Positions 12-15,021 are shown, numbered from the stretch's first letter. The stretch: 64,000 nucleotides of DNA from Nitrospira sp. ND1 (GCF_900170025.1 NZ_FWEX01000005.1:797774-861773), one strand, 5' to 3'. Notes: a model not told the origin generated them from the sequence alone. A program made the numbers and translations.

Positions 12-614
12 CTACGGAACGATCACGGTATCTCCCGGACGAAGCATCACATTTTGATTCGTATCTTCTCCTTGAACAAACTTGCTGTAACTGAACGGAA
101 TCCGCTGCTCGTTGCCGCGAGCGGGATTGACGATGAAAATCTTGTTTCGAGAGGCAAACGTGGTGAGCCCCCGCGCCATCGCCAAGGCCTGAATGACGGT
201 CACTGGCCCCTTGAGATCGAAGACGCCAGGCTGCATCACTTCACCCAGGACGAAAATGCGAAAGCTGTGCGTCGCCTCCAAGATCACCGTGACTTGCGGA
301 TCCTGGATGTGCTGCTTGAGCTGCTTGTTGATCCGTTCCTCGATCTCACCCAGCGTGAGCCCCTTGGCCTCGATCTCGCCGATCAACGGATAGTTGATTT
401 TGCCGTCCGGTCGAACGGTGACCATGGTCGACAGTTCTTTGTGCTTCCAGATGAACACATTGAGCACGTCGCCCGCACCCAATCGGAAAGGACCGCTCCA
501 ACCTGCCTCTGGGGATGGAACAGCGACCGGCTCGGTTTCGGATGCCTGCACGGCGGCCGCCAGGCACAGAACCATGAAACATACAGCCCAGCATGTGTAA
601 CGAATTCGTCGCAT
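12..614 (-). CDS. Wza-like polysaccharide export protein (Poly_export + SLBB)
   Basis: Periplasmic/outer-membrane export component for the polysaccharide made by the upstream operon. An N-terminal signal peptide of about 25 residues ends in AxA-type residues (AAAVQA) with no convincing lipobox. A polysaccharide-export domain follows (FRLGAGDVLNVFIWKHKEL, about residues 43-120), then a soluble ligand-binding beta-grasp domain (RIFVLGEVMQPGVFDLKG). At 200 residues it is much shorter than classical Wza (about 380), so it has no room for the C-terminal outer-membrane helix region. The ATG at 614 is chosen over the one at 638 because a GGGAGG ribosome site precedes it. It is the last gene of the EPS run. 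Confidence 0.88.
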   Translation of the reverse strand: MRRIRYTCWAVCFMVLCLAAAVQASETEPVAVPSPEAGWSGPFRLGAGDVLNVFIWKHKELSTMVTVRPDGKINYPLIGEIEAKGLTLGEIEERINKQLKQHIQDPQVTVILEATHSFRIFVLGEVMQPGVFDLKGPVTVIQALAMARGLTTFASRNKIFIVNPARGNEQRIPFSYSKFVQGEDTNQNVMLRPGDTVIVP

Positions 615-643
615 GACTCGCCTCCCTCTCGATAACATGAATC

Positions 644-1648
644 TTAGTTGGTCTTACTCATCAATAACGGCACGGTTCGCATCAACCCAGTTGCCATGAC
701 GGCGGCCCGGCACACCAACAGGAATGGTGCGGCCAGTCGCAATCCCGGATCCTCGCGAGGCAGTTGCCAGAGAAACGGCAACGCTGTGACCGTGAAGAGG
801 CCACCGGCCAGTGCCGCCACATAGCTGGCATGTGGCACCAGCGGAATCAGCGCAAGCGCCCCCACACCGAGCACGACAGAGCCGATCTGAAGCTTGAGTG
901 TTTGTGGAGTGTAGGAATCACGGATGGCCTTGCTCGGAAACCGTTTGTACACCATCACCCGCCAATAGGCCCGGCTATGTTTTTTCCGAAGATACTGTTT
1001 CAGTGTCGCAGGATGTTGATGATAGATAATCGCTGCCGGCTTGAACTTGATCTTGTAGCCGGCGGTCGCGACCCGGTAGGAGAGGTCTGTGTCCTCGTTG
1101 TCGGCGACAGGAAAACTGGTGTCGAACCCGCCGATCGTACGGAACACCTCGCGACGGAACCCCGCCGAGTAGGAAAAGACCACGTCCACATACTCGGCAG
1201 CCGCCAACTGGCGATACCGGGCCTCAAACTCGGCCTGCGCAAAGCGAGCCACAAGGCTGCGTTGTTTTGTCTTGTAGGCCCCTTTCACGGCGGCTATTCC
1301 AGGTGACTGAAACGGCGCCACCATTTCCTTAATCCAGTCAACGTGCGGCACACAGTCGGCGTCAGTGAACAGGAGAAACTCTCCTTGAGCCGCTTCTGCA
1401 CCGAGGTTCCTGGCCGCCGCCGGCCCCCGATGAGCTTGGCGAAGTACGCGCACCCTCGGGTGCGCGCCCCCCCAATCCTTGACGTAGTGTTCGATATACT
1501 CTGGCGTGCCATCCGTCGATTCATCATCGACGATGATCAGCTCGACCTCGTCCGCCGGGAACGATTGCCGCGCAAATGAATCCAATCCGTCGTGAATCGT
1601 CTTCGTGGCGTTGTAAGCCGGTATGACTACTGTTACACGTATTGCCAT
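644..1648 (-). CDS. Family 2 glycosyltransferase with C-terminal membrane segments
   Basis: Transfers a sugar from a nucleotide donor to the growing lipid-linked repeat unit at the cytoplasmic membrane. The GT-A signatures are visible: VTVVIPAYNATKTI at the N terminus, VDDESTDGTPEY, the metal-binding DADC and a later DNEDTDLSYR acceptor/catalytic region. Two hydrophobic stretches near the C terminus would anchor it. The start at 1648 (MAIRVTVV) is preferred over the upstream ATG at 1726 because it has a GAGG site about 8 nt upstream and opens directly on the conserved first strand. Donor and acceptor cannot be read from the sequence. Confidence 0.88.
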   Translation of the reverse strand: MAIRVTVVIPAYNATKTIHDGLDSFARQSFPADEVELIIVDDESTDGTPEYIEHYVKDWGGAHPRVRVLRQAHRGPAAARNLGAEAAQGEFLLFTDADCVPHVDWIKEMVAPFQSPGIAAVKGAYKTKQRSLVARFAQAEFEARYRQLAAAEYVDVVFSYSAGFRREVFRTIGGFDTSFPVADNEDTDLSYRVATAGYKIKFKPAAIIYHQHPATLKQYLRKKHSRAYWRVMVYKRFPSKAIRDSYTPQTLKLQIGSVVLGVGALALIPLVPHASYVAALAGGLFTVTALPFLWQLPREDPGLRLAAPFLLVCRAAVMATGLMRTVPLLMSKTN

Positions 1649-1756
1649 GAGTACCTCATCTCCGTCCCGCCGCCACGCAAGCGGCTTGTACGCGTACGTC
1701 TCCGCACGTGGGACGTCCCCCCGCACCGACCCCCACTGTGCGACTTCGGCCCTATA

Positions 1757-3157
1757 TCACGCCTCCGCCCTCGCCATGCGCCCAATCGCGATGGCCATGG
1801 GTAGCGTCAGCCAAATCTCGCGCACCATCGGTGTGATCATCAAGAATGCCATCTGCCCGAGAATGATGCTGCACATGAGGATGGCATAGGAGCGCAATTC
1901 CGGGTGACGCAGGGCGCGTTTGGCGGAGATCAAGGCCCAGCTCCACATCCCAAGAAATGCGGCGAGCGCAAACATCCCCAGTTCGCTGGCCACCTCCAGA
2001 AAGACGTTGTGAATCGTGGACGGATGGGAGGAATGGTTCGCCCACGCCGGCAAATATTTCGTATAGTGCCAAATCGACTGCCCGAACCCGACACCGAACC
2101 AAGGATTCGCAACAAAGAGCTTCCAGCCTCCGACGATCGACTCCAATCGGAATTGCCAACTCCCGCTCGCTTCATTCACATCGGCTTTTCCGAACAACCC
2201 TCCGCTTTCTACCGCCTGCACCCCTGTCGAGAAGGATTCCGAGATCGCCTGATAACTCAGGAAACCCGTAAAAACAAATACCGCCCCGATAAGCAGCAGT
2301 ACACGGACGGCACGCGAGCGGAACGACAGGGCAACGACGGTCATCAGCGCAAACCCGATCATCGAACTTCGGGCAAACGTGTAAAACCAGGCGTAGCCCA
2401 TCAACGCCAGGATGCCTCCCAGCAGGACCTGTATCGACGGACGTGACTCCGTCAGAAACAGAAAAGCCGTGCAGGGAATGGCCATGAGAAAGAAGCTCGC
2501 TAGCATGATCGGGTGCGAGGTCGTGCCTTCGGCTCGGATCTTGCCCTCCAGGACGGCGCTAAGAGTTCCATCCACGCCGCCTTCGCCAGGTTGCCCGAGA
2601 TTCTTCCGCCAGTCGCCTGGCATCACGAATCCGTAGTGCACCTGCGCGGCAGTAATAAGCGCTTCCACGAGGCCGGTGAATGCGATGACCCAGAGCAGGC
2701 GGCGAAAGTCTTCAGGGGTACGATTGAATGTGAGGGTAAAATAGAAGAGAGCCCCGTAGACAGGAATTTTCGCCGCCTCTCCAGGCAGACCACGCAAGCC
2801 CTCAGCGAGCAGCAGGGACACTATGGACGTCAGAAAAAACATGCCGGCCAGATAACCGGCGGGCCATCGCATAATCACAGGCCAGGGGCCTCGATGAATC
2901 AGCGCATTAAAGGTCACCATCCCGATGGTCAAGGGCGTGATCAGTTTGGTAACGGTGATGCTGCTGAAGAGATCGACCTGCACCGGAATAGTCGCCACCA
3001 AAATGTAATAGGGAAACGCGACCGATGTGGCCATCGTCCCGAAGGCCGTCCCGGCGATCAGAATCGCCAACGCTTTCGTCGAGAGCGCGAGCACCGAAGC
3101 GCCCAGTGCCGCGCCGATAAGCGTGGGCGCCGCAACCGTGCCGAATGCCGGTCTCAT
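1757..3157 (-). CDS. Wzy-type O-antigen/EPS polymerase or ligase
   Basis: Polytopic inner-membrane protein of 466 residues with about 11-12 hydrophobic segments and one large periplasmic loop (roughly residues 170-230 and 310-390). It contains the FARSSMIGF stretch and the NPWFGVGFGQS region typical of the Wzy_C/O-antigen ligase superfamily. It is expected to polymerise flipped repeat units on the periplasmic face. Its start overlaps the stop of the flippase gene by 4 nt (ATGA), so the two are translationally coupled. WaaL-type ligases share the fold; the position between a flippase and a glycosyltransferase, beside a Wzz-like gene, favours polymerase. Confidence 0.82.
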   Translation of the reverse strand: MRPAFGTVAAPTLIGAALGASVLALSTKALAILIAGTAFGTMATSVAFPYYILVATIPVQVDLFSSITVTKLITPLTIGMVTFNALIHRGPWPVIMRWPAGYLAGMFFLTSIVSLLLAEGLRGLPGEAAKIPVYGALFYFTLTFNRTPEDFRRLLWVIAFTGLVEALITAAQVHYGFVMPGDWRKNLGQPGEGGVDGTLSAVLEGKIRAEGTTSHPIMLASFFLMAIPCTAFLFLTESRPSIQVLLGGILALMGYAWFYTFARSSMIGFALMTVVALSFRSRAVRVLLLIGAVFVFTGFLSYQAISESFSTGVQAVESGGLFGKADVNEASGSWQFRLESIVGGWKLFVANPWFGVGFGQSIWHYTKYLPAWANHSSHPSTIHNVFLEVASELGMFALAAFLGMWSWALISAKRALRHPELRSYAILMCSIILGQMAFLMITPMVREIWLTLPMAIAIGRMARAEA

Positions 3158-4464
3158 ATACCTCGTGTCCCTTCCGCCAAGGGGCTGACTCGAGGCTTAG
3201 CTGACCGCAGAAACCCCAGCGCGTGCCTCAGAATGGCGACGATGGCCAGCGATTGGAGCATACGGGCGATCAGGGTGGTCCATGCAGCTCCGAGAGCCCC
3301 GTAACCGGGAATCAAGAACCACCCGGCGATGATCCACCCGAGAAACGCCGATCCTTGGATCAGGCTGAAGAGGTGCGGGCGGTTCATCGTGTACAAGACC
3401 AAATACAAAGGATGCGTCACCAGGGTACCGAGCGTGCCGATGAACAGAATCTGAAATACCGGAATCGTGCTTTCATAAGCCGGGCCGAACAACGCAAGCA
3501 CCAGCGGTCGGGCGAAGTAGAGAAAGGGAAGAAGCGCGACCGCGATGACGGCATAGACAGGGAAGGACCGCTGTACATATGACCGGCATTGTTCGAGTCC
3601 GGTTAACTGGCTGACCTTCGGGAGTAACGTCGTCAAGAGGCTGACCGTCAGGAAATCCACTCCCATCAGCAGAGAGGAACCGGCGCCGTAGAGGCCGGCC
3701 TCCCGGGCATCGGCGACATAATTCAAGACGGGGACACCCAGGTTGACTTGAAGAATGAAGAAAAGGCTGGCCATCGCCGGCCACTTACTAAACCGAAGGA
3801 GTTCGCGCAGCAATTCCTTGTCAAGCTTGAAATTTGATAGGTGGGGGCGCAGCAGCCATAGACCCCATGCGGTACACGCATAATAGAAAAAAACATGGAG
3901 ACCCATAACAGGCCCCAAGGACAGCCACCCAGTCCACAGCAAGATAGGCACACCGATAACGCGTAGGAAATTGACCAACCCCACCATCAGCCCGTAGGTC
4001 CCGAACTCCTCCCTCGCCTGCCAGACCGAAAGATTGAAACTCCACAATGCCGCCCCGAATGAACCGACCATGCCCAACATCACGGGCGAGACGTACGCGT
4101 GGCTGGTAGACGCACGTTCGGCGAAATGAACTCCCACGGCCACACCTAACAACACGATCGGAATGCCGAGCAGAATCCGAAGCGCGAGCGCGTTGGTCAA
4201 CACGGCAGTTGCCCTCGCGGGATCCGTCCGTCTATTCATGGCGTAGAACCGGACGACTCCTGGGTTCAGGCCGTCTCCAAGAACATCGTTGCCGAAGATG
4301 AGGATCACGATAAACAGCGAAAACAGACCGAATTCCTCAGGCCCCATCCAGCGGGCGACGATCAGGCTCATGACAAATCCCAGGCAGGCCCCCGTCATTT
4401 TCCCGGCAAACACGAGGGCGGTCTGCTGCGACAGCGCCTTTAGACCCGTCCATTTGATCTGCAT
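3154..4464 (-). CDS. Wzx-type polysaccharide flippase (MATE/MVF superfamily)
   Basis: Expected to move undecaprenyl-linked repeat units across the inner membrane. The 436-residue protein has about 12 hydrophobic helices and the characteristic start of the family (ALVFAGKMTGACLGFVMSL, then RWMGPEEFGLFSLF). Length and architecture match Wzx/RfbX proteins. It ends 4 nt inside the start of the polymerase gene and begins shortly after the epimerase gene, so it is part of the same transcript. Substrate specificity is not predictable. Confidence 0.87.
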   Translation of the reverse strand: MQIKWTGLKALSQQTALVFAGKMTGACLGFVMSLIVARWMGPEEFGLFSLFIVILIFGNDVLGDGLNPGVVRFYAMNRRTDPARATAVLTNALALRILLGIPIVLLGVAVGVHFAERASTSHAYVSPVMLGMVGSFGAALWSFNLSVWQAREEFGTYGLMVGLVNFLRVIGVPILLWTGWLSLGPVMGLHVFFYYACTAWGLWLLRPHLSNFKLDKELLRELLRFSKWPAMASLFFILQVNLGVPVLNYVADAREAGLYGAGSSLLMGVDFLTVSLLTTLLPKVSQLTGLEQCRSYVQRSFPVYAVIAVALLPFLYFARPLVLALFGPAYESTIPVFQILFIGTLGTLVTHPLYLVLYTMNRPHLFSLIQGSAFLGWIIAGWFLIPGYGALGAAWTTLIARMLQSLAIVAILRHALGFLRSAKPRVSPLAEGTRGI

Positions 4465-4471
4465 GCCCGCT

Positions 4472-5443
4472 CTACACCAGCCCCTTCACCATTGGTTCTC
4501 CAACCCCGCCGCGCATCGCCTTCTCAGCGAATAAGGAGACGTCGGCCGACCAACGGCCCACACAATGTTCCACCCCTCTTGTGATGTCGCCCGGCTGATA
4601 CGATACTAAATCCAGCAACAGCGACGTATCGGCCTGCCAGTGCTTGGGATCGCCCGGTAACTCCTTATTCAACGTCACAATGGCCTTGCGGCTTCCGACC
4701 AGACGAGTGACGATCTCCGCCATGGTTCTGACCGAGGTAGAACTCCCGGACGCTACATTCACCGCCCAGAAACCTTTCGGCTGCCGCTCGGCGATTCCAA
4801 GGAAGTATCGGCAAATATCGTCGATGTGAAGAAAATCACGCGTTTCTGTCCCTGTGCCTTGAATGGTCAGATAGGGATTGTCGTCGATCGCCTGCCGGAA
4901 AAGTTCCCACACCAGCAACCGCTGCTGAGCCGGGCCGATGGTGGAGAACAGTCTGGCGACCACGACATTCAGGCCGAAACATTGCGCATACTCCTGCGCC
5001 AGTTGCTCGCAAATGACCTTGTGAAACCCATAGGGTGATATCGGGCGCAGGCTCGCTCCCTCGGTGACCGGCAACAGGGTCGGATTGCCGTACACGGAGG
5101 CACTGGACGGAAATATGACCAACGGCTTCACGTCGGCCTTTCGAACCGCATCCAGCACCGCGCCCCACGTCTCGACGGCCTTTAAAAAATCCTCGCGGGG
5201 TTCTTGAAACGAATACCCGACCGAGGCGGAGCCGGCGGCATGCGCCACCACGTCCGGGCGGTACGCATTCACAGCGTCGATGAAATCCGGGTGCTCGAGC
5301 GCACATCGCTTGAATGCCATACCTTCGATGGGCATCCCCTGCTCCGAGCGCGCGACGCCCAAGACCTCGTGTCCGCTGCTGAGAGCGTATCGAGCCATAC
5401 TGCTTCCGACGAATCCGTGGCAGCCTGTAACCAATAGTTTCAT
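4472..5443 (-). CDS. NAD(P)-dependent nucleotide-sugar epimerase/dehydratase
   Basis: Extended short-chain dehydrogenase that would modify a nucleotide sugar for the polysaccharide. The Rossmann motif is at the extreme N terminus (MKLLVTGCHGFVGSSMARY), a Ser active-site region follows (IFPSSASVYGNPTLLPVTE) and the catalytic YxxxK is in SPYGFHKVICEQL. About 323 residues is normal for UDP-glucose 4-epimerase or GDP-mannose dehydratase relatives. The start at 5443 places the glycine-rich loop at residue 7 and has an AGGAAG element upstream; the longer 5509 start adds an unconserved leader. The exact sugar is unknown. Confidence 0.85.
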   Translation of the reverse strand: MKLLVTGCHGFVGSSMARYALSSGHEVLGVARSEQGMPIEGMAFKRCALEHPDFIDAVNAYRPDVVAHAAGSASVGYSFQEPREDFLKAVETWGAVLDAVRKADVKPLVIFPSSASVYGNPTLLPVTEGASLRPISPYGFHKVICEQLAQEYAQCFGLNVVVARLFSTIGPAQQRLLVWELFRQAIDDNPYLTIQGTGTETRDFLHIDDICRYFLGIAERQPKGFWAVNVASGSSTSVRTMAEIVTRLVGSRKAIVTLNKELPGDPKHWQADTSLLLDLVSYQPGDITRGVEHCVGRWSADVSLFAEKAMRGGVGEPMVKGLV

Positions 5444-5515
5444 GACCGGTTCACTTCCTGTGACGAAGACCCGTCTTCCGGCGCGATCTTCAAATCGTCG
5501 CCAGACCATTCCCCA

Positions 5516-6304
5516 TCATTTGATGATGAAGCAGCTCCCCATCGGCGTTTCATAAAAGACCGAACAGTCAGTGCCTCGCAAAAATTCATCCACGGCCCTC
5601 TTGGCGCCGGGAAACACGCTATACCCGTAGTCATCGACGACGATGACGCCGCCCGGCAACAGCCTGGGATAGAAAAATTTCAGGCTGTCCAGAGTCGGCT
5701 GGTACAAATCGACATCGACGTGCACGAAGGCAAACTTCTTACTCTCGACTTCTGGAAATCGATCCGGAATCCACCCCTTGTAGATTTCGATGAAATCGAA
5801 ACCAATTAGGGCCTTCTTCAAATCGTCGATGGTGGAGGAAAACCAATTCTTCTCAAATTCGGCTTCTTCCTTGGTCTGCCGGGCATAATCGGAGACGTCT
5901 TCGCTGGTTTTGTCGGAGAGTCCGCCTTCGAACGAGTCGAAGATATGAAACGACTTCGAGAAACCATGCCGGGCGAGAATCGTCGAAATAATATAGGCCG
6001 AATGACCTTTCCAACATCCGCACTCCGCAAACTCCCCGTCGATGTTCTTGCGCGCGGCCGACTCGGCCATCTGTTGCAGGCTATACATGCGGCATTGCAG
6101 GGGGAAATTATCCACCCATTCCATGCCCGACTTGGCGAGTCCTTCCCGGTAAAGCACCATTCGCGGATGATCTTGCTGAAAATATTCCAGCGTGTTCTTG
6201 TCGAAGAAGACGATGTCGGTATCGCGTTTTTTTTTGTGAAACTCGGCTTGGAGCCCCAGCATGGAAAACCCCTTCACGAGCGATGTCTTAATGATCTGCT
6301 TCAC
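5516..6304 (-). CDS. TylF/MycF-type class I methyltransferase
   Basis: Likely O-methylates a sugar of the polysaccharide using S-adenosylmethionine. The TylF-family motif I is seen as EFAECGCWKGHSAYIIST, followed by FHIFDSFEGGLSDKT, a histidine/aspartate motif HVDVDLYQPTLDSLKFFYPR and GGVIVVDDYGYSVFPGAKRA, all typical of macrocin O-methyltransferase relatives that bind Mg2+. The length of 262 residues fits. The start is GTG at 6304, preceded by GGGAGG at 5-nt spacing. It lies between a GT4 enzyme and an epimerase in the EPS operon. Confidence 0.85.
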   Translation of the reverse strand: MKQIIKTSLVKGFSMLGLQAEFHKKKRDTDIVFFDKNTLEYFQQDHPRMVLYREGLAKSGMEWVDNFPLQCRMYSLQQMAESAARKNIDGEFAECGCWKGHSAYIISTILARHGFSKSFHIFDSFEGGLSDKTSEDVSDYARQTKEEAEFEKNWFSSTIDDLKKALIGFDFIEIYKGWIPDRFPEVESKKFAFVHVDVDLYQPTLDSLKFFYPRLLPGGVIVVDDYGYSVFPGAKRAVDEFLRGTDCSVFYETPMGSCFIIK

Positions 6305-6323
6305 AACAACCTCCCACCCTCAT

Positions 6324-7556
6324 TCATAACTTACAGCCGATCTCACCGAGTTGGCGTCTGAAATGTTCCTGGACCGAGCGCGCCTTGTTCCTGTCCGGAC
6401 GCATACGCACTAATCTTTCGTAGACCTGAAACGTTCGCTCAGCCATGGCGGCCAGGCTGAGGTCGTGAACGATTTTGTCTCGAGCACGCAGGCCGACTTC
6501 GGTAAGCTCCTGGGGGCTCTCCCTCAGGCGTAGCAACGTCTCCGTCAGAACCGGCACATCGTCCACAGGCACCAGGTAGCCGGTCCGGCCGTCAGTAATC
6601 ATTTCGGAGGCGCCCCCTACATCCGACGCCACCACAGGCTTCCCCATAGCCATGCCTTCGAGCATCGTAAAACTGAAGCTTTCGGCAAAGGACGGCGCTA
6701 CCAGTACATCCAAAGACGCAAACACGGCGGGGATCTCCGCCAAGGAGACATGCGCCATGAGAACGGCCGAACCCAGACCATGCTCGGCGATCCAATCGAC
6801 AAGCGTTTGCCGATATGATTCGAATCCGGGAAGCACCGTACCGACAATCACAAATCGACTGCGAGGATAGCGATCCAAGATCGTCCTGGCCGCCTTGAGA
6901 AAGTTCAGGTGGCCTTTGACCGGATGAATACGCCCCACCATGCCGAAGACGTAGTCGCCGTCCGCGGCAAAACCGGTCACGGACGAGGGGGCGAGGGAGC
7001 GAGTGGGATCGAACCACGCCGTGTCGATTCCATTGCGAATCGCGACTACTGGGGGGTCCTGCTCGCGTAGTTTTAATTCTGCACCGATGGCCACCGAATC
7101 GGTGATCACCGCATCCAGTCGCCGGAGAATCATCCGATCGATCCAGGGATAGACCGTCGCCCGCCAGGAGCCTCTAGGAAAATTGACCCATCCGAGAAAC
7201 GAGGCCAGCACTGGACGTCCCGTGAGTCGCGCACTGAGTATCCCGATCAGGTCCGAGCGATGGTCCAGAGCATGCACGACGTCGGCTTCATACGCTTTAA
7301 TCAAGGAGGCGGCCTTATAGACATCGCTTAGATCGAAGGGATTCCCGATCGGAATCGTGACGTGCTCAAACCCGGTCTGCTTCAATTCCTTTAGCCAGGA
7401 TGTTTCGCCTAGCGCGGGATTGACGATGCACACCAGGAGGCAGCGAACTTTCTGTGGGTCGAATCCCTTCAAGAGAGAAAGAAGATAGGTTTCCCCTCCC
7501 GTCATGCCGGTAATCCCACGGCAGTTGCGAATGATCACAACTCGAATCGGTTTCAT
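6324..7556 (-). CDS. GT4-family glycosyltransferase
   Basis: Retaining GT-B glycosyltransferase of 410 residues. The N-terminal donor-loop region reads GITGMTGGETYLLSLL. The C-terminal Rossmann domain has MVGRIHPVKGHLNFLKA, and the nucleotide-sugar motif PSFAESFSFTMLEGMAMGKPVVASDVGG carries the usual EX7E glutamates. It acts on the cytoplasmic face during repeat-unit assembly. It belongs to the continuous minus-strand EPS run, 50 nt downstream of the GT39 gene stop and 20 nt upstream of the TylF gene. Acceptor and donor sugars are not predictable. Confidence 0.87.
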   Translation of the reverse strand: MKPIRVVIIRNCRGITGMTGGETYLLSLLKGFDPQKVRCLLVCIVNPALGETSWLKELKQTGFEHVTIPIGNPFDLSDVYKAASLIKAYEADVVHALDHRSDLIGILSARLTGRPVLASFLGWVNFPRGSWRATVYPWIDRMILRRLDAVITDSVAIGAELKLREQDPPVVAIRNGIDTAWFDPTRSLAPSSVTGFAADGDYVFGMVGRIHPVKGHLNFLKAARTILDRYPRSRFVIVGTVLPGFESYRQTLVDWIAEHGLGSAVLMAHVSLAEIPAVFASLDVLVAPSFAESFSFTMLEGMAMGKPVVASDVGGASEMITDGRTGYLVPVDDVPVLTETLLRLRESPQELTEVGLRARDKIVHDLSLAAMAERTFQVYERLVRMRPDRNKARSVQEHFRRQLGEIGCKL

Positions 7557-7602
7557 CAGCGGTTCCTACTCTCGGCACAGCCAGTCAGCATCGCTGGCGC
7601 CG

Positions 7603-8988
7603 TCATAATCGAGTCTCTCGGTACGATCTTGCCGCCGCGCCGACCGGCACAGCCCGCAACCAGCGGACCCAGGACACTCCGAGCGACAAGCCCCATCGTT
7701 CGTTCAGTGTATGCACGATCGCTCGTAAGCCGGCCGCCAGCAGAATGCTCAAGACCGGAATGGTCGGAATGCTGTAGCGAATGGTGGAAAATGTCAGCGC
7801 ATGAACGGCCGCAAGGAATACGACCGGCAGGATCAGCGGGAACACCGTGATCCCCTGCCGCTTCGCCTCCAGCATGCCCAGGACCGCCACGCCCAGGAAG
7901 AAGGTTTGAAACAAGACAATGTACGATTGCGCCCAGCGATTGTCGGGAAGAAAAATCCTGAGCCAGAACCTGAACAGTTTTCGGACCGTCAATAATGCAG
8001 TATCGAACGGATGGGAGCGCATTTCCCGCCAGGCGGCCAGGAAAAATGCATGATCGTCAGGGACCGAAATGTGAACCGGCTGCGTAGCCGATCGGATCGA
8101 CGGATAATTCGCGACAGGAGCGAGAACCCGATCCGCCGGCTCTGTCCCCGTGATTACGGCGCCGCGCCGCTCGAACAGCTGCACCCGGGTCATTTCATCG
8201 ACTTCCCAGTCCTCCTTGCCCTCACTTACCATTTGATTACCGAGCCAGAGGGCGTAGCCTCCCCCGGTTGCCACGGCCACCACTTCGCCCGTCTCGCGAT
8301 AGTTCCGAAGAGCCCAGGGAGCCACCACCATCAGGCAGGCAAGGGTCAGCACAGTCGCCGCGGATAGTGCGCGACCCGGTTCGTCCCGCAACTGATATAC
8401 GACGCATGTCGCAAGCAAGGGCCACAAGCCCAACGCCACCGGCTTCACCAGCGCTGCGACGGCGATCAATGCGCCTACGGCCAGGTAGGCCATGAGACGT
8501 CGGGTGGTCACCGCCGCGATCCAAGCCGCGATGACGGCCGTGAACGCCAGGGTAAAGAGCGGCTCAGACAGGAATCGGAGCGAGTAATAAGCGGAAAGTG
8601 GATGCACCGCAAAGCTCACGGCAGAGAGCAATCCGACGGTCTCACCGAACAAGCGCGTGCCCAAGTAAAAGATCAAAACGGCCGTGACCGCATCCAATGC
8701 GGATTGAGTAAGAAACACCCCTGTTTCATTCTGCTCCCCGAAGAGCGCGTAGACAGCCGCCAAAAAAGCCGGATAGAGCGGAGCGCGCCAAATGATGGGC
8801 TCACCGCCCGCTTCGGCGACAAAACCATGGCCACGCGCCAGATTCACCGCAATGTCCGAGTAAACATCCGCGCGTTTGACGACCGGCACCGTCGCGTCGA
8901 TGACCCCACCGACGCCGATACGCAGGGTGAAACACAGGGCAAAAACCGCACAAAGACACAGCCATTGTGAAGATCGGTTCAGCGCCAT
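7603..8988 (-). CDS. GT39/ArnT-like membrane glycosyltransferase
   Basis: Polytopic protein of about 461 residues with a dozen hydrophobic helices and the first periplasmic loop signature of lipid-linked-sugar-dependent transferases (DVYSDIAVNLARGHGFVAEAG, then IIWRAPLYPAFLAAVYAL). Relatives such as ArnT and protein mannosyltransferases use polyprenyl-phosphate sugars on the outer face of the membrane. It may decorate the polymer or another envelope component after flipping. The start at 8988 avoids overlap with the preceding hydrolase gene and removes an N-terminal extension of low quality; a GGAG element is upstream. Confidence 0.8.
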   Translation of the reverse strand: MALNRSSQWLCLCAVFALCFTLRIGVGGVIDATVPVVKRADVYSDIAVNLARGHGFVAEAGGEPIIWRAPLYPAFLAAVYALFGEQNETGVFLTQSALDAVTAVLIFYLGTRLFGETVGLLSAVSFAVHPLSAYYSLRFLSEPLFTLAFTAVIAAWIAAVTTRRLMAYLAVGALIAVAALVKPVALGLWPLLATCVVYQLRDEPGRALSAATVLTLACLMVVAPWALRNYRETGEVVAVATGGGYALWLGNQMVSEGKEDWEVDEMTRVQLFERRGAVITGTEPADRVLAPVANYPSIRSATQPVHISVPDDHAFFLAAWREMRSHPFDTALLTVRKLFRFWLRIFLPDNRWAQSYIVLFQTFFLGVAVLGMLEAKRQGITVFPLILPVVFLAAVHALTFSTIRYSIPTIPVLSILLAAGLRAIVHTLNERWGLSLGVSWVRWLRAVPVGAAARSYRETRL

Positions 8989-8995
8989 TGCCGGC

Positions 8996-10270
8996 CTACT
9001 CTCCGCCCTTGAAGGAGGCTTGCTTGAGGTAACGAGGGTTCTCACGAACCGCCCGCTTCCAGGCCCCCGTTTCATCCTCGAAGGTGCCAAACCTGGGCAC
9101 TTCGTAGTAATCTTCGGCAATTTTGAAATCAGCGAGCGTGATCGCCTGCACTCGAGGGAACTGCGGCAACACGTCGCGGAACACCTCCTCTATCACCCGG
9201 GCTCGACTACTTGTCTTATCTCCCAACACCCCGAACTCAGGGAGAAATAGAGGCCGATTAGTCACCGCCCCCCAGGCGGCATACCCGGGCCCCAATGCCT
9301 CCGCGACGGACGTGGCGAGTTCCTGCTGTCGAAGTTTAGGAACGGCCAGGGGATCGATGAAATACGCACTCTGCCCCACCCAGTCGATGTAGTCGTCGCC
9401 GGGATAGAAATACTGGGGATGCAGCCATGGGGAATAATCCTCATGACGGGGATTCATATAGTGAGACCCGGCGTACATGAACCAGGTCACGTTTCGCACC
9501 TCTTCTCTTCGAAACCTATCGATGACGTAAATGAAGGCGTCTCTGATGCGCTCCGGCCCGTCCGGCCATGTCGGATCCCCGTACAGCCGGCACACATGAT
9601 CGACATCGTCCAACCGCGTTCCGCCCTGCTTACCGAACCCCATCATCCCCTGGTAGTTGAATTCGCTGAATAGGGTGAGCATGATCGGATGCCCGTACGC
9701 CTTGATCTGACGGGCCACGCTCGTGATGTATGAATCGAAATCACCCCGCAACAGGCGATCGACCGTCACCGTCGGTTTACGGAATCCGTACCAGAACAGG
9801 TGTGACTCCCAATCACAACACTGGATGGCCCAGGCCACCGCCAGCACGCCACCCTCGCTTCTGACCTGCTCGGCCAGCTGGAGCGGACTGAGCAGGGATG
9901 ATTCCAACGGATCCGTGAAGGTCCTGAAATGCGGCGAAGATGCGGTCCAGTCGTCGTCGGAGACCCAATCGTGAAAGGTAAACACAATGGCGGGCCGATG
10001 CCCGCTCTTCGCCGTGAACCGTATCCGGTCTTCCGGGATCGTACCGATGCTGTACAAGCCGATGTAGGCACCGTTCGAGGGCGGAGTCAGGGTGACACCA
10101 TCTACAGCGGAAGCACGATGGTGTTTCGGCGCAGGCGCCTCGGTCCGACAACCGGCCACCGCCTCGGTCGCCGGTGAAGACCGGGCGTCCGTCGCAGCCA
10201 ATAAGAGCCCGGACAGGAGCAACACTCCACAACAAAAGCCCCGTCCGAATTTGGACGGCTTGCTACGCAC
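8996..10270 (-). CDS. Secreted GH26-like glycoside hydrolase
   Basis: Exported (beta/alpha)8 hydrolase resembling family 26 endo-beta-mannanases and related EPS hydrolases. A signal peptide of about 30 residues (GFCCGVLLLSGLLLAA) leads a catalytic domain. The putative acid/base glutamate is E203 in LTLFSEFNYQG and the likely nucleophile is E345 in LFLPEFGV, both in family-typical context. It starts at GTG 10270 with GGAG upstream and overlaps the methyltransferase gene by 8 nt. Inside a polymer operon it probably trims or releases the polymer in the periplasm or outside the cell. Family placement is by motif only. Confidence 0.75.
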   Translation of the reverse strand: MRSKPSKFGRGFCCGVLLLSGLLLAATDARSSPATEAVAGCRTEAPAPKHHRASAVDGVTLTPPSNGAYIGLYSIGTIPEDRIRFTAKSGHRPAIVFTFHDWVSDDDWTASSPHFRTFTDPLESSLLSPLQLAEQVRSEGGVLAVAWAIQCCDWESHLFWYGFRKPTVTVDRLLRGDFDSYITSVARQIKAYGHPIMLTLFSEFNYQGMMGFGKQGGTRLDDVDHVCRLYGDPTWPDGPERIRDAFIYVIDRFRREEVRNVTWFMYAGSHYMNPRHEDYSPWLHPQYFYPGDDYIDWVGQSAYFIDPLAVPKLRQQELATSVAEALGPGYAAWGAVTNRPLFLPEFGVLGDKTSSRARVIEEVFRDVLPQFPRVQAITLADFKIAEDYYEVPRFGTFEDETGAWKRAVRENPRYLKQASFKGGE

Positions 10271-11057
10271 GACCTGCTCCCTTATCCAGCTCGACGATCT
10301 GCAGATAGCCGTATCGACGCACGATCGGAATTGACCCGGCGAGTTGATCGCAATGTCTAAGTAGGGCCGTCATCCGTGACCAACGTTTCTTGAACACGTA
10401 GAAATCGAGCAACCGAAAGAAAAGGAAACTCGGAAAATGAATGGTGCAGGCGCCGGGAAAGACGCTCTGAAGCGTCGCAATATCGCGACGGGTAAGCGGA
10501 TGCTCATGATCATCGCTGTATTGAGGCACGCCGAACCGTCCGCAGACCTTGCTTCTGGCCGCCATGAGCAACGGATTGAGCGCGGAGTTTTCGATGAACA
10601 CCGCTTTCCCCCCCGGCTTCAAGACGCGAGCCAATTGCCGGCTGGCCTTGGGAAGATCCACGTGGTGCAAAACAAATGTGCCGAACACGACGTCGAAACT
10701 CTCGTCCGGAAAATCCAGTTCCTCGAAGGGCTTGCAAAGAAAGGTCACATTCACTCCGTTCGCCTTTGCCAGCCTTCGCGCCGTATCGAGTTGACCGTCC
10801 GCCGTATCGAACGCGGTGACGATCGCGCCACGTTTCGCCAGCATCACAGACGTGTGCCCGGGACCGCAGCCGCAATCCAGCAGCACCTTGTCCTTCACAT
10901 CACCGAGCAGGGCCAACGCATAGGCATAGAGTTCATACAGGCCCCAGAGGGTGAGCCAATAGTCATAGGGCGCATACCAACCGTCTTCTCGAACGAACCC
11001 CTCCACCGGGGACGCCTTCTCATTCATCTGTAGTACTCCCGCGATCGAGTCACTCAT
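10263..11057 (-). CDS. SAM-dependent class I methyltransferase
   Basis: Methyltransferase of the UbiE/Methyltransf_11 type. Motif I is VLLDCGCGPGHTSVMLAKRG (about residues 59-78), followed by an acidic FDTADG strand, FDVVFGTFVLHHVDLPKA and the post-motif LKPGGKAVFIEN. Length is 264 residues. It overlaps the co-polymerase gene by 4 nt and the hydrolase gene by 8 nt, so it is translationally coupled on both sides. A role in methylating a sugar or terminal residue, possibly chain termination, is inferred from position only. Confidence 0.83.
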   Translation of the reverse strand: MSDSIAGVLQMNEKASPVEGFVREDGWYAPYDYWLTLWGLYELYAYALALLGDVKDKVLLDCGCGPGHTSVMLAKRGAIVTAFDTADGQLDTARRLAKANGVNVTFLCKPFEELDFPDESFDVVFGTFVLHHVDLPKASRQLARVLKPGGKAVFIENSALNPLLMAARSKVCGRFGVPQYSDDHEHPLTRRDIATLQSVFPGACTIHFPSFLFFRLLDFYVFKKRWSRMTALLRHCDQLAGSIPIVRRYGYLQIVELDKGAGRA

Positions 11058-13288
11058 ACGCCCTCCCTCCCACCGGCCGCCAACCAGCGCCCGTAAATCC
11101 AGTCCGGAATGATGTATCGACGCTTGTTCAACACGAGTCCCAGCAAGTGCCCTCCTGCGGCCTCGATCGACATAGTGGTCCTGGCCGCCGCCACCGACAC
11201 CGTCCGCTCAGCCTCGATCACCAGAATCGTGCCGTCGATTCCTGCGATGGCCACACGCATCTCAGGAAAGGAGGTCAACGCGGGGCCGTCGATCACGATT
11301 AAATCGAACCGATCGCGCATGGTCTTGGCGACTTCCGCCAGATGCTCGGCAAATTCCAGCGCGGTGCCTTCCTTGTGCCGAACCAGCAAGCGATGGAGGA
11401 GCGGGAGATCGGTCGACTCGGGGTCAGCCTGACGGAGCCGGCCGGCATCCGGCCCTTGCTTGTCGGCGGCAGCGCCATCGTCGGTAGTTGGCTTCCCGGA
11501 ATCGGCCGCTTCAAAGGTGATGAGCAGTACGCGAAACTTCTGCTCGGCCAGCACTCGCGCGAGCGCCCCAGCTACGTGCGACCGGCCTTCACCGCGGAGG
11601 GCGCTCGTGGCAAGCAGTGTTCTCAGACCGCGCTCATGGTACGACCGAATGACCTGCTGCGCGGCCTGCCGTAACTCAAGATCGAAACTGACAGCATCGG
11701 ACGTGCCAGGACGGACGAGCGGTAACGCCGCGAGCACAGGCCGCCTGAGAGCATCCTCCACCTCCTCGCGGGTGACGAAGGTCCGGCGCATGTACTCGGA
11801 CACATAGGCTGAGCCGAATCCTCCGACCAATCCGATCAAGAGTCCAATCACCACGTTGAGCAACTTGCGGGGCCTGATGGGTTTCTGCGGAGCCGTAGCA
11901 TGCTCTATCGCATTCACGTTCGAGATGCCTTTGCGGTCCAACACTTCATTGATACGCGACTCTTCTTCCTTCTTGAGGTAGATGTCGAAGGCTTCTTGCT
12001 TGACCTTGACCTCGCGCATCAGCCCCTGCAATTCCATCTCGCGCTGATCCAGGGTATTGAGAGAATCCCGGTAGGATTTAAATTGCTTGGTCAGCTCCGA
12101 GAGGCGCGGACGCAAGCTCTCGCGACGACCTTCCTCCATGACCAGGTTGCGCTTCAACTCCTGATAGGTTTGGTTAAGACCGGAGGTCGCTGCGCCGGTG
12201 ACCTTCGCACTCTCCGCCTGCAGACGGGCACGCACGGCGGCAATTTCACGCACAAGCTCTCCGGCAGCGGGACTGTCCGGTACATACTGGGAATACTCCA
12301 ACTCCATCTGCATCAACCGGTTCTTCAGTTGATCCAGCATCGGATTCCGCTCTGAGACATTCGTGAGCGGAATCGCCTCCTGTTGCCCTGCCAGCCGTTC
12401 CTTCAGTTTGGTGATGCGCACTTCCGTTTCTGCGACTTGTACCTGACTCTCACGAAGTGCGGCTTCGGTGTGCGTCACTTGCTGCAGGAGATGCCGCTTT
12501 TGATCTTCGATGGAGACGATGTTCCATTTGTCTTTGAAGGCCTGTAGCCGGAGTTCGGCCTGCTGCAACTCGCCGCGCATCTGCTTCGTCTGCTCGTCGA
12601 AGAATTCGCGCGCACCTTTGCCTTTACGGATGGACAGCTGGTGGTCCATGTAGATCCCCACCAATGCGTTGAGGGCATCGGCGGAAAAGTTCGGATCTGG
12701 CGAATCCAGACTGGCCACAAACACATGCGTTTGCCGCACCCCCTCCACATTCAAATGAGCCCGAATCTGCTGCACGGCTTGATAGTGCAAGTTCTCCGGC
12801 TTGGATTCATACCCGATCGTCGCCAGCACTTGAGCGACCGGCGGCAGACCGGCCAGCTGCTTGAAGACGAATTTCGGCAGGTCGGCAACCCAGTCCCAAC
12901 GCCCCCGCATGGACGTCAACACCCGCTCATTCCCGAAGTAGTCGACCAACTTATCTAGTAGAATCGGGCTGGTGAAGATTTGCACCTCGGTCGCCACATC
13001 ATCTTTCTGGGTGATGTCGGAAGGCGTGAATACCTGACCCGTCAACGGGGTGCTCATGCTGAAGGGAGTCCGCGCGTTCTGAATGAGGAGTCGAACCTCG
13101 GCGCTGTAGATATTGGTCATCAGAAACGAGCCCGGACCGGCCACCATGGTCGCCACTCCGATAATTGTGAGCAGCATGCGCTTCTGACGGAACACAGTAA
13201 TCAGATGTTCTCTTAGACCGAACGCGGATCGGTTTGGAACGGCGGCGGATTTCGCTTCGGGGAGCCCAGTCGTGTACGGCACGTTCAT
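11054..13288 (-). CDS. Wzz/GumC-like polysaccharide co-polymerase fused to a degenerate BY-kinase domain
   Basis: Controls chain length and coordinates export. The N-terminal Wzz region has a transmembrane helix near residues 38-58, a long periplasmic coiled-coil region (about 200-440) and a second helix near 470 (LLNVVIGLLIGLVGGFGSAY). The cytoplasmic C-terminal P-loop domain resembles bacterial tyrosine kinases but is altered. Its Walker A reads SALRGEGRSH with Arg where Lys is expected, the Walker A' aspartate is missing (VLLITFEAAD) and there is no Tyr-rich tail. Walker B (DLIVIDGPA) remains. It is probably ATP-inactive. The start is the ATG at 13288, which overlaps the upstream TGA and follows AGGAG. 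Confidence 0.85.
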   Translation of the reverse strand: MNVPYTTGLPEAKSAAVPNRSAFGLREHLITVFRQKRMLLTIIGVATMVAGPGSFLMTNIYSAEVRLLIQNARTPFSMSTPLTGQVFTPSDITQKDDVATEVQIFTSPILLDKLVDYFGNERVLTSMRGRWDWVADLPKFVFKQLAGLPPVAQVLATIGYESKPENLHYQAVQQIRAHLNVEGVRQTHVFVASLDSPDPNFSADALNALVGIYMDHQLSIRKGKGAREFFDEQTKQMRGELQQAELRLQAFKDKWNIVSIEDQKRHLLQQVTHTEAALRESQVQVAETEVRITKLKERLAGQQEAIPLTNVSERNPMLDQLKNRLMQMELEYSQYVPDSPAAGELVREIAAVRARLQAESAKVTGAATSGLNQTYQELKRNLVMEEGRRESLRPRLSELTKQFKSYRDSLNTLDQREMELQGLMREVKVKQEAFDIYLKKEEESRINEVLDRKGISNVNAIEHATAPQKPIRPRKLLNVVIGLLIGLVGGFGSAYVSEYMRRTFVTREEVEDALRRPVLAALPLVRPGTSDAVSFDLELRQAAQQVIRSYHERGLRTLLATSALRGEGRSHVAGALARVLAEQKFRVLLITFEAADSGKPTTDDGAAADKQGPDAGRLRQADPESTDLPLLHRLLVRHKEGTALEFAEHLAEVAKTMRDRFDLIVIDGPALTSFPEMRVAIAGIDGTILVIEAERTVSVAAARTTMSIEAAGGHLLGLVLNKRRYIIPDWIYGRWLAAGGREGV

Positions 13289-15021
13289 CACACTCCTTTC
13301 AGCAACACCCGTGCGGTCCGGATGAGAATGTACAGGTCCAGTAACAGTGAATGCGTGCGGACATATTCAAGGTCGTATCGAATCCACTCCGCGAATCGAT
13401 TCCGATTGCGCGCCTTCACCTGCCAGAGACCCGTCAAGCCGGGGGACACACTCAATCTCGCATCGCGCCATGTCGGGCAGAATTTCATCTCGTCATAGGC
13501 CAGCGGGCGAGGTCCGACAAGACTCATTTCGCCGCGTAAGACATTCAACAGCTGCGGCAACTCGTCGAGGCTCGTTTTGCGGAGAATCTTGCCCATGCGG
13601 GTAATACGGGGATCTTCCTCTAACTTGAACATTGGTCCGTCGACACTGTTTTGTGCCCGCAACTCTTTCTGACGCTTCTCCGCATCCGGCACCATGGTTC
13701 TGAACTTATGCATCCAGAATTCCCTGCCGTTTTTCCCGCACCGCTTTTGGGAGAAAAACACCGGGCCCGGAGAATCCAGTTTGATCGCCAAAGCGATAAG
13801 CGCCATGAGCGGACCTACGAGAACCATCCCGAAAGCGGCGGCCACGAGATCAACGACGGATTTGACTAGGCCATACATCGACCGTTGACCGTTGCCTCTC
13901 TGCGCCTTTCCGGACGACCGTTGAGCACGCCTCGTCCGTTGCGCCGGCTTGCCCGGAGGAGCCTGGGAAGACGGTCCATGCGGCTCATACATGGCTGGCT
14001 TCGCCTTGGTCCAGAATGTGCTCCGAAGGCGCATGCCCTCGGGTACGGCCTCGTCGCCGGCCACCACGGAATATTCCACCCTGGCATTCCCCTGTACCCG
14101 CGTGCCGGACCGGAGCACACTCTCGCGAACGAGACTTCCCTTTTCCAAGTGAGAGGTCGGACCGATCACCGCGGGCCCGATCAGGTGTACATAATCTTCC
14201 ACCACACAATTGGGGCCGATCACCAAGGGGCCCAACAAGAACGAGCGCGGCGAAATATCCGAATTTTCACCGATGACAATGTCGTCCATGCCACCGTGGC
14301 GACTGTCGCCACGCGCGCCGGATTGGATGTCTTTGAACAGAATCTCGCGATTCAACCACAGAAAGTCCTCCGGCCCCGTGATCGTACACACGCCGCCTTG
14401 GATTTGGTGGGCGCGAATCGAGCCGCCACGGCTTCGTAGCAACGGTACCAGTTGCTCGTTCACATCAAAATATTCGTCCCGAGGGATGAGCGGCAGCACC
14501 TCACGGTTGAATACGTATACCCCGCAAGGCGTCAGCTGACTTCGACGGTTCCTCGACCAATGTAGAATATTGACCCGGGAGACGAGCCCGGTCTGGTCCA
14601 CTTCGACACTTTCCAGGTCATCGTCGTTGCCTGCCATGCGCTGAGTGACCAACGTAATGCCAGCATGATGTGATTCATGGGCGTCGAGGGCAGCCTCCAG
14701 GTCCACGTCGCGCAAATACACATTGGCATGAATGGCCAGAAAGGTCGGCGTGTCGAGAAAGTCTTCCACCGCCTGCAAGCCACCAGCGGTTCCTCGATAG
14801 ACGGGCTCTGTCCGCCAGAACACGGTCATGCCGCAGGCACGACCGGCTCGACACACGAGTTCCCGCACATACGGGTCTTGCTCACACGACACAACCGCTA
14901 CCTCGCGGACACCTTGTTGCTTGAGAGCCAGCAGCAGGTGGTCGATCAAGAGCTCGTTTCCGACTGGAAACGCCAGCATTGTTCCGACCCATGGAGCACT
15001 TTCCATGATCACGGCTTTCAT
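13288..15021 (-). CDS. Fusion: nucleotidyltransferase-like + left-handed beta-helix + initiating sugar-phosphate transferase
   Basis: First gene of the EPS operon, about 577 residues. The C-terminal domain (about 385-577) is a polyprenyl-phosphate sugar-1-phosphate transferase: membrane hairpin [20 protein letters not shown], then [36 protein letters not shown] and [14 protein letters not shown]. It starts repeat-unit synthesis on undecaprenyl phosphate. The N-terminal 235 residues resemble sugar nucleotidyltransferases followed by hexapeptide-repeat beta-helix ([20 protein letters not shown]). The usual GGxGTRL loop is absent ([17 protein letters not shown]), so the domain is probably not catalytic. 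A Pro/Arg/Gln-rich linker joins the halves. The start at 15021 is chosen because the longer ORF adds an unconserved leader. Confidence 0.85.

Follow-up and report, generated by a model that had tools for sequence, protein, structure and literature searches.

A catalytically dead nucleotidyltransferase fold joined to a phosphoglycosyl transferase at the head of a Nitrospira exopolysaccharide operon

A gene of Nitrospira sp. ND1, located in the 64,000-nucleotide stretch of DNA analyzed here (the window; NZ_FWEX01000005.1:797774-861773), joins a catalytically dead nucleotidyltransferase (NTase) fold to a phosphoglycosyl transferase (PGT) with intact motifs. Judged by its gene content, the locus is a Wzx/Wzy exopolysaccharide (EPS) operon, of which the fusion is the head gene, encoding the committed step of EPS synthesis. 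The same fusion recurs in several phyla under strong selection, so that it probably serves as an inherent control or assembly element in this first step of slime production.

The open reading frame has the coordinates given in the original prediction of an EPS initiating transferase fused to an NTase and lies on the minus strand, with M1 at 15021 and the stop codon at 13288-13290 (Table 1). Pfam recognizes both halves: PF00483 (NTP_transferase) matches residues 17-178 (E 4.5e-9), Hexapep residues 267-298, and PF02397 (Bac_transf) residues 387-574 (E 4.5e-66; 222 bits vs. a curated cut-off of 27). A sequence search of solved structures places the N-terminal part nearest to UDP-glucose and GDP-mannose pyrophosphorylases, and the C-terminal part nearest to WbaP-type PGTs and PglC. 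The predicted completeness of the C-terminal transferase holds, with Bac_transf above the cut-off and the Asp-Glu dyad and Lys/Arg/Pro motifs of a monotopic PGT all in place; D486-E487, K439, R441 and R505 show no variation among 41 members of the fusion family. Neither the window protein nor any of six further fused proteins searched with Pfam has the PF13727 DUF that marks large monotopic PGTs, a domain present in three large PGTs of relatives.

Table 1. Features of the fusion gene and its operon (window coordinates)
Feature	Position	Strand	Basis
Complete fusion gene (577 aa), at the head of the EPS operon	13288..15021	(-)	ORF, Pfam, genus copies
GT-A NTase fold without catalytic residues, residues 1-240	14302..15021	(-)	Pfam, profile alignment, AF2, structure match
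Replaced, shortened phosphate loop, PKP Lys deleted; residues 7-23 (17 letters)	14953..15003	(-)	Alignment, AF2
Base-binding loop GTAG kept, residues 77-80; G77 and G80 invariant in 43 rows	14782..14793	(-)	Alignment; VTC1 Gly85 (PMC9168903)
E137 (Glu in 41/43), aligned with the sugar-binding Gly146 of VTC1	14611..14613	(-)	Profile alignment
HWSRNRR, residues 154-160; signature H-x-[SA]-x-[DEN]-R-R replaces EKP	14542..14562	(-)	Alignment
E189-Q190, invariant; E189 at the catalytic Lys196 position of VTC1	14452..14457	(-)	Profile alignment
Left-handed beta-helix (hexapeptide repeats), residues 246-338	14008..14286	(-)	Pfam, AF2, dN/dS
Disordered basic linker, residues 341-380; 9 K/R, 1 D/E	13882..14001	(-)	Full-length AF2, sequence
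Monotopic PGT (Bac_transf), residues 381-577	13291..13881	(-)	Pfam, solved-structure search
Catalytic dyad of the PGT, D486-E487	13561..13566	(-)	Invariant in 41 members
Wzc/GumC-like co-polymerase with pseudo BY-kinase domain	11054..13291	(-)	Next gene; Pfam, sequence
Degenerate Walker A GEGRSH (canonical GEGKST) in the Wzc-like neighbor	11576..11593	(-)	Sequence, profile
Rest of the Wzx/Wzy operon	12..11057	(-)	Pfam, sequence

The stop codon of the fusion overlaps the start of the Wzc/GumC-like gene (TGATG), which is followed on the minus strand by genes for a methyltransferase, an unassigned protein, PMT_2, GT4, TylF, an epimerase-like protein, Wzx, Wzy, a GT2-like protein and Wza-like export; the epimerase-like and GT2-like genes are named by sequence only. 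A Wza-like or Wzc-like gene was also read after the fusion in several other loci. A 424-aa protein encoded within the operon (8996-10270, minus) has no Pfam match and looks by eye like a secreted, glycoside-hydrolase-like protein, and an isolated transposase-like HTH gene (PF01527; 15173-15508, minus) lies just upstream of the operon.

Residues 1-345 were modeled with AF2 from 43 sequences (pLDDT 87.6, pTM 0.85), and the model matches VTC1 (7x8j_A) over its whole length (Z 33.2, rmsd 3.5, 326 aligned residues) and also resembles human GMPPB (7d74_G, Z 31.8), tlr0611 (Z 30.2) and eIF2B epsilon (Z about 29). This end-to-end match to GDP-mannose pyrophosphorylases upholds the NTase/beta-helix architecture originally proposed. 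The nearest solved relative is tlr0611 (8x7s; profile E 2.6e-58, Foldseek 8.9e-21), a UTP--glucose-1-phosphate uridylyltransferase which, unlike the window protein, keeps canonical GKGTR, PKP, GD and EKP motifs and has no PGT fused to it. The eIF2B gamma and epsilon proteins, likewise at Z about 29, are translation factor subunits with an unrelated partner; in them the NTase-like plus beta-helix fold serves regulation and assembly, not sugar activation. In the AF2 model, a short helix at residues 12-17 is predicted to occupy the phosphate-loop position of active enzymes. A full-length model recovers both domains and a disordered linker (341-379), with a pTM of 0.58 and a domain arrangement that is not reliable.

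Active-site positions were transferred from VTC1 to the window protein by profile alignment, and the pocket mapping is an alignment, not a ligand-bound model. In VTC1, Gly9, Thr12, Arg13 and Lys23 serve the phosphate, Gly85 the base, Asn173 and Gly146 the sugar, and Asp111, Asp219 and Glu195-Lys196 catalysis (PMC9168903). The equivalents of the phosphate loop and Lys23 are deleted in the window protein, leaving neither a GGxGTR loop nor the PKP Lys; the metal Asp pair has become N100 (Asp111) and I214 (Asp219), Glu195-Lys196 corresponds to N188-E189 ([KN]-E in the family), and the EKP Lys and WxD Asp are also missing. Replacement of the loop, which the original prediction had described, is confirmed at residues 7-23, but the loss was understated, as the Lys of PKP, the GD Asp, the EKP Lys, Glu-Lys and the WxD Asp are gone too. 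Across 43 aligned rows, position 214 is I, V or L, position 189 is always E, position 188 is K, N or R, and position 100 can be N, D, S or E. The second metal Asp has been lost throughout and the first in most members; in one clade, from records that bear the titles Deltaproteobacteria or Syntrophobacterales, GD or GE remains at the position-100 site, but the EKP Lys and WxD Asp are absent. A complete catalytic set was found in no family member whose region was readable (45 recovered), in agreement with the prediction of a catalytically dead domain. According to the alignment and the model, the window protein shares with GMPPA a GT-A NTase plus left-handed beta-helix fold devoid of catalytic residues.

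The phosphate-loop region is heterogeneous across the fusion family. Some deep relatives (L083-L085, L091 and L092) retain a phosphate loop, AGGQKTRLSPL, yet lack the catalytic Lys and Asp and the other catalytic residues, which suggests that catalysis was lost before the loop and that the loop was probably the last part to go. Besides the base-binding loop, the old active site holds residues that are new and near-invariant: E137 (41/43), H154 (41/43), R160 (39/43) and E189 (43/43). The sugar-binding N173 of VTC1 is not conserved in the family. D186, Q190 and H115 are ancestral, since tlr0611, an active relative, has the same residues at these alignment positions.

Within the genus, 11 of 29 genomes carry the fusion, the 10 besides the window's own having full-length copies at 75-90% identity; the aligned copies have a common start Met and all are without the loop. 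One genus copy (L002, G028:C235) contains an in-frame TAA, either a draft assembly error or a broken copy. Among 395 genomes of the phylum, all 17 matches with E < 1e-40 are open frames of 589-669 aa, while the next match (1e-17) is unfused, in frames of ~250 aa. Down to this degree of similarity, the N-terminal domain was found only as a fusion. The search for the same fusion in other genomes, advised in the original prediction, recovered 45 strong members from several phyla (one genome per species, the canonical L135 not counted), 42 of them fused in frame and the other three truncated by the sequence end. Their records are titled Nitrospira, Nitrospirae, Thermodesulfovibrionales, Deltaproteobacteria, Syntrophobacterales, Schekmanbacteria, Acidobacteria, Thermoanaerobaculales and Nitrospinae. 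Viral contigs contained no relatives of the fusion. L135 (Chloroflexota), which is unfused and keeps the canonical motifs, was used as an active reference rather than a member, and L137-L146, which resemble relatives but are unfused, were also excluded from membership.

The main clades agree between the N-domain and PGT trees, and the fused PGTs form one group relative to 23 unfused PGTs with a support of 92, which favors a single fusion event without proving it. Pairwise dN/dS within the genus, computed region by region, is 0.08-0.24 for the NTase part, 0.02-0.06 for the beta-helix (the most constrained part), 0.05-0.10 for the PGT and 0.24-1.6 for the linker. The low values in the dead half indicate that it is maintained, and full-length conservation at 75-90% together with purifying selection rules out chance or an annotation artifact as the origin of the fusion.

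The function we favor, to which we would give an even chance, is that of a pseudoenzyme accessory domain, in which the N-terminal half would oligomerize the PGT and bind a nucleotide or NDP-sugar to tune it. From the observed anatomy, conservation and selection we infer binding, oligomerization and an effect on the PGT as follows. The beta-helix would dimerize or oligomerize the protein, as in GDP-mannose pyrophosphorylases, and set the oligomeric state of the PGT; the kept base-binding loop and the new E137, H154, R160 and E189 would hold a nucleotide or NDP-sugar without turnover; and the flexible linker would pass occupancy on to the membrane-bound PGT, tuning its use of scarce undecaprenyl phosphate. 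The NTase domain would then stand in for the transmembrane bundle and PF13727 DUF of large PGTs. A sensor fits the invariance of the base-binding loop and the strong purifying selection; the loss of the VTC1 N173 equivalent counts against ligand binding, as does the tighter constraint on the beta-helix than on the NTase half, which would be expected under pure oligomerization.

Two precedents combine here, and for this reason we prefer a ligand-binding, oligomerizing domain to a pure scaffold. Large monotopic PGTs with PF13727 (WbaP, CpsE, EpsZ) likewise have an active C-terminal Bac_transf core, initiate Wzx/Wzy pathways and carry an N-terminal accessory domain related to nucleotide-sugar enzymes, whereas the fusion family has a pseudo-NTase and beta-helix and no PF13727. 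Their accessory DUF resembles UDP-sugar dehydratases; that of WbaP is stabilized by UMP, UDP and UTP, and UMP inhibits WbaP with an apparent IC50 of 4.1 uM (PMC10942596). GMPPA and plant KJC have the same two-domain fold as the fusion's N-terminal half. GMPPA is a dead, regulatory paralog that binds GDP-mannose and inhibits GMPPB (PMC11228364); it is a separate subunit regulating a pyrophosphorylase paralog, while the dead domain of the fusion is covalently tied to a PGT.

It is possible, though we would not expect it, that the dead domain binds no small molecule and is purely structural, the beta-helix dimerizing the PGT and docking a Wzc-like co-polymerase or glycosyltransferases. The lowest dN/dS (0.02-0.06) is in the helix, such domains are dimerization elements in GDP-mannose pyrophosphorylases (PMC9168903), and WbaP is a dimer stabilized with help of its accessory domain (PMC10942596). 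The adjacent gene encodes a pseudo BY-kinase in several clades, and the pseudokinase EcpK has been proposed to be a scaffold (PMC12004946). Across phyla, however, the base-binding glycines never vary and a coordinated set of new residues has appeared within and close to the former active site, which surface scaffolding alone would hardly account for.

The neighboring co-polymerase gene bears on a further possibility. Its Walker A motif lacks the Lys expected of a BY-kinase, having Arg instead in the window and in Nitrospira relatives. A BY-kinase-like gene is visible within the flank examined in 19 of 46 loci, and in 17 of these 19 genes, from several phyla, the Lys is gone (replaced by R, A, S, T or C), compared with its retention in 25/25 control BY-kinase paralogs from related genomes scored with the same profile. 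The rows are related, so the 17 losses are not 17 independent events; different replacement letters in separate clades nevertheless suggest that the Lys was lost more than once beside the fusion. The two loci that retain it are L097 and L105. The L105 locus (L105:2058-2903 and L105:722-1489) further carries a second PGT in a 282-aa frame of its own and, upstream, a BY-kinase with the canonical GEGKT. Like the BY pseudokinases EcpK and HfsB, the neighbor has a BY-kinase fold with Walker A lost, but EcpK has none of the three Walker motifs and no Tyr tail, whereas the neighbor keeps a recognizable Lys-less P-loop.

These losses would be explained if the NTase domain acts together with the pseudo BY-kinase, control of the PGT by Tyr phosphorylation having been lost and the pseudo-NTase having become the new input, an idea that may add to either the ligand-binding or the scaffolding function and that we regard as rather doubtful. 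CapM-dependent lipid I synthesis rises 4-fold on phosphorylation by CapAB (PMC6441080), a precedent for the control supposed lost; on the other side stand the phylogenetic non-independence of the rows, the visibility of the gene in only 19/46 loci, the Lys kept in L097 and L105, and BY pseudokinases that accompany other PGTs as well (M. xanthus, PMC12004946). A more ambitious form, unlikely on present evidence, is an initiation switch made from two dead nucleotide enzymes in several phyla: a pseudo-NTase, coupled to the PGT, that senses a nucleotide or NDP-sugar, and a pseudo BY-kinase on the co-polymerase, with ligand-driven assembly replacing phosphorylation control.

It is improbable that the N-terminal half is still an enzyme, with altered chemistry, whose remodeled pocket (His, Arg, Glu) converts a nucleotide sugar or sugar phosphate in some other way and supplies the PGT. 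The near-invariant polar H154, R160, E137 and E189 do suggest a selected site rather than decay, but no member has the second metal Asp and most lack the first, the phosphate loop that a nucleotide-phosphate enzyme should retain is heterogeneous, and the genome has 11 other PF00483 matches. That the N-terminal half is a functionless, decaying leftover of a bifunctional synthase-transferase is very improbable: different catalytic subsets are lost in different clades and one genus copy (G028) has an internal stop, but dN/dS is 0.08-0.24 in the NTase and 0.02-0.06 in the helix vs. 0.24-1.6 in the linker, and 42 of 45 loci, spread over several phyla, keep the fusion in frame, with the remaining three truncated.

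Few controls of initiating PGTs are known, namely UMP sensing by the WbaP DUF, CapAB acting on CapM and EpsW acting on EpsZ. The pseudoenzyme accessory domain favored here touches on the open question of when bacteria commit scarce undecaprenyl phosphate to exopolysaccharide. In floc- and biofilm-forming nitrifiers and many uncultured groups, the family provides a conserved domain that is well folded and has a defined candidate pocket, and sensor vs. scaffold becomes testable on a 340-residue construct. Pseudo-NTase regulators, PGT accessory sensors and BY pseudokinases (EcpK, PMC12004946) are each already known; what is new is their combination and the conserved, remodeled pocket. The original wording of a "new type of control" was therefore too strong, because a non-catalytic, nucleotide-sensing domain on a PGT has a described example in the DUF of WbaP (PMC10942596), as has a dead NTase with a regulatory role in GMPPA (PMC11228364). 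Its statement that no example had been described stands for the fusion itself, for which we found no paper in the open literature, although a PGT network survey (O'Toole 2021) may list the architecture; it does not stand for related sensors and pseudo-NTases, which are known separately. Bifunctional monotopic PGTs (Bi-PGT, PMC10942596) also carry an extra domain on the PGT core, but that of the window fusion is not expected to be catalytic. Another PGT fusion was seen in Nitrospira relatives (L163:2259-5045, ~929 aa), in which Bac_transf is followed in one frame by PF13727 and a PF02719 dehydratase.
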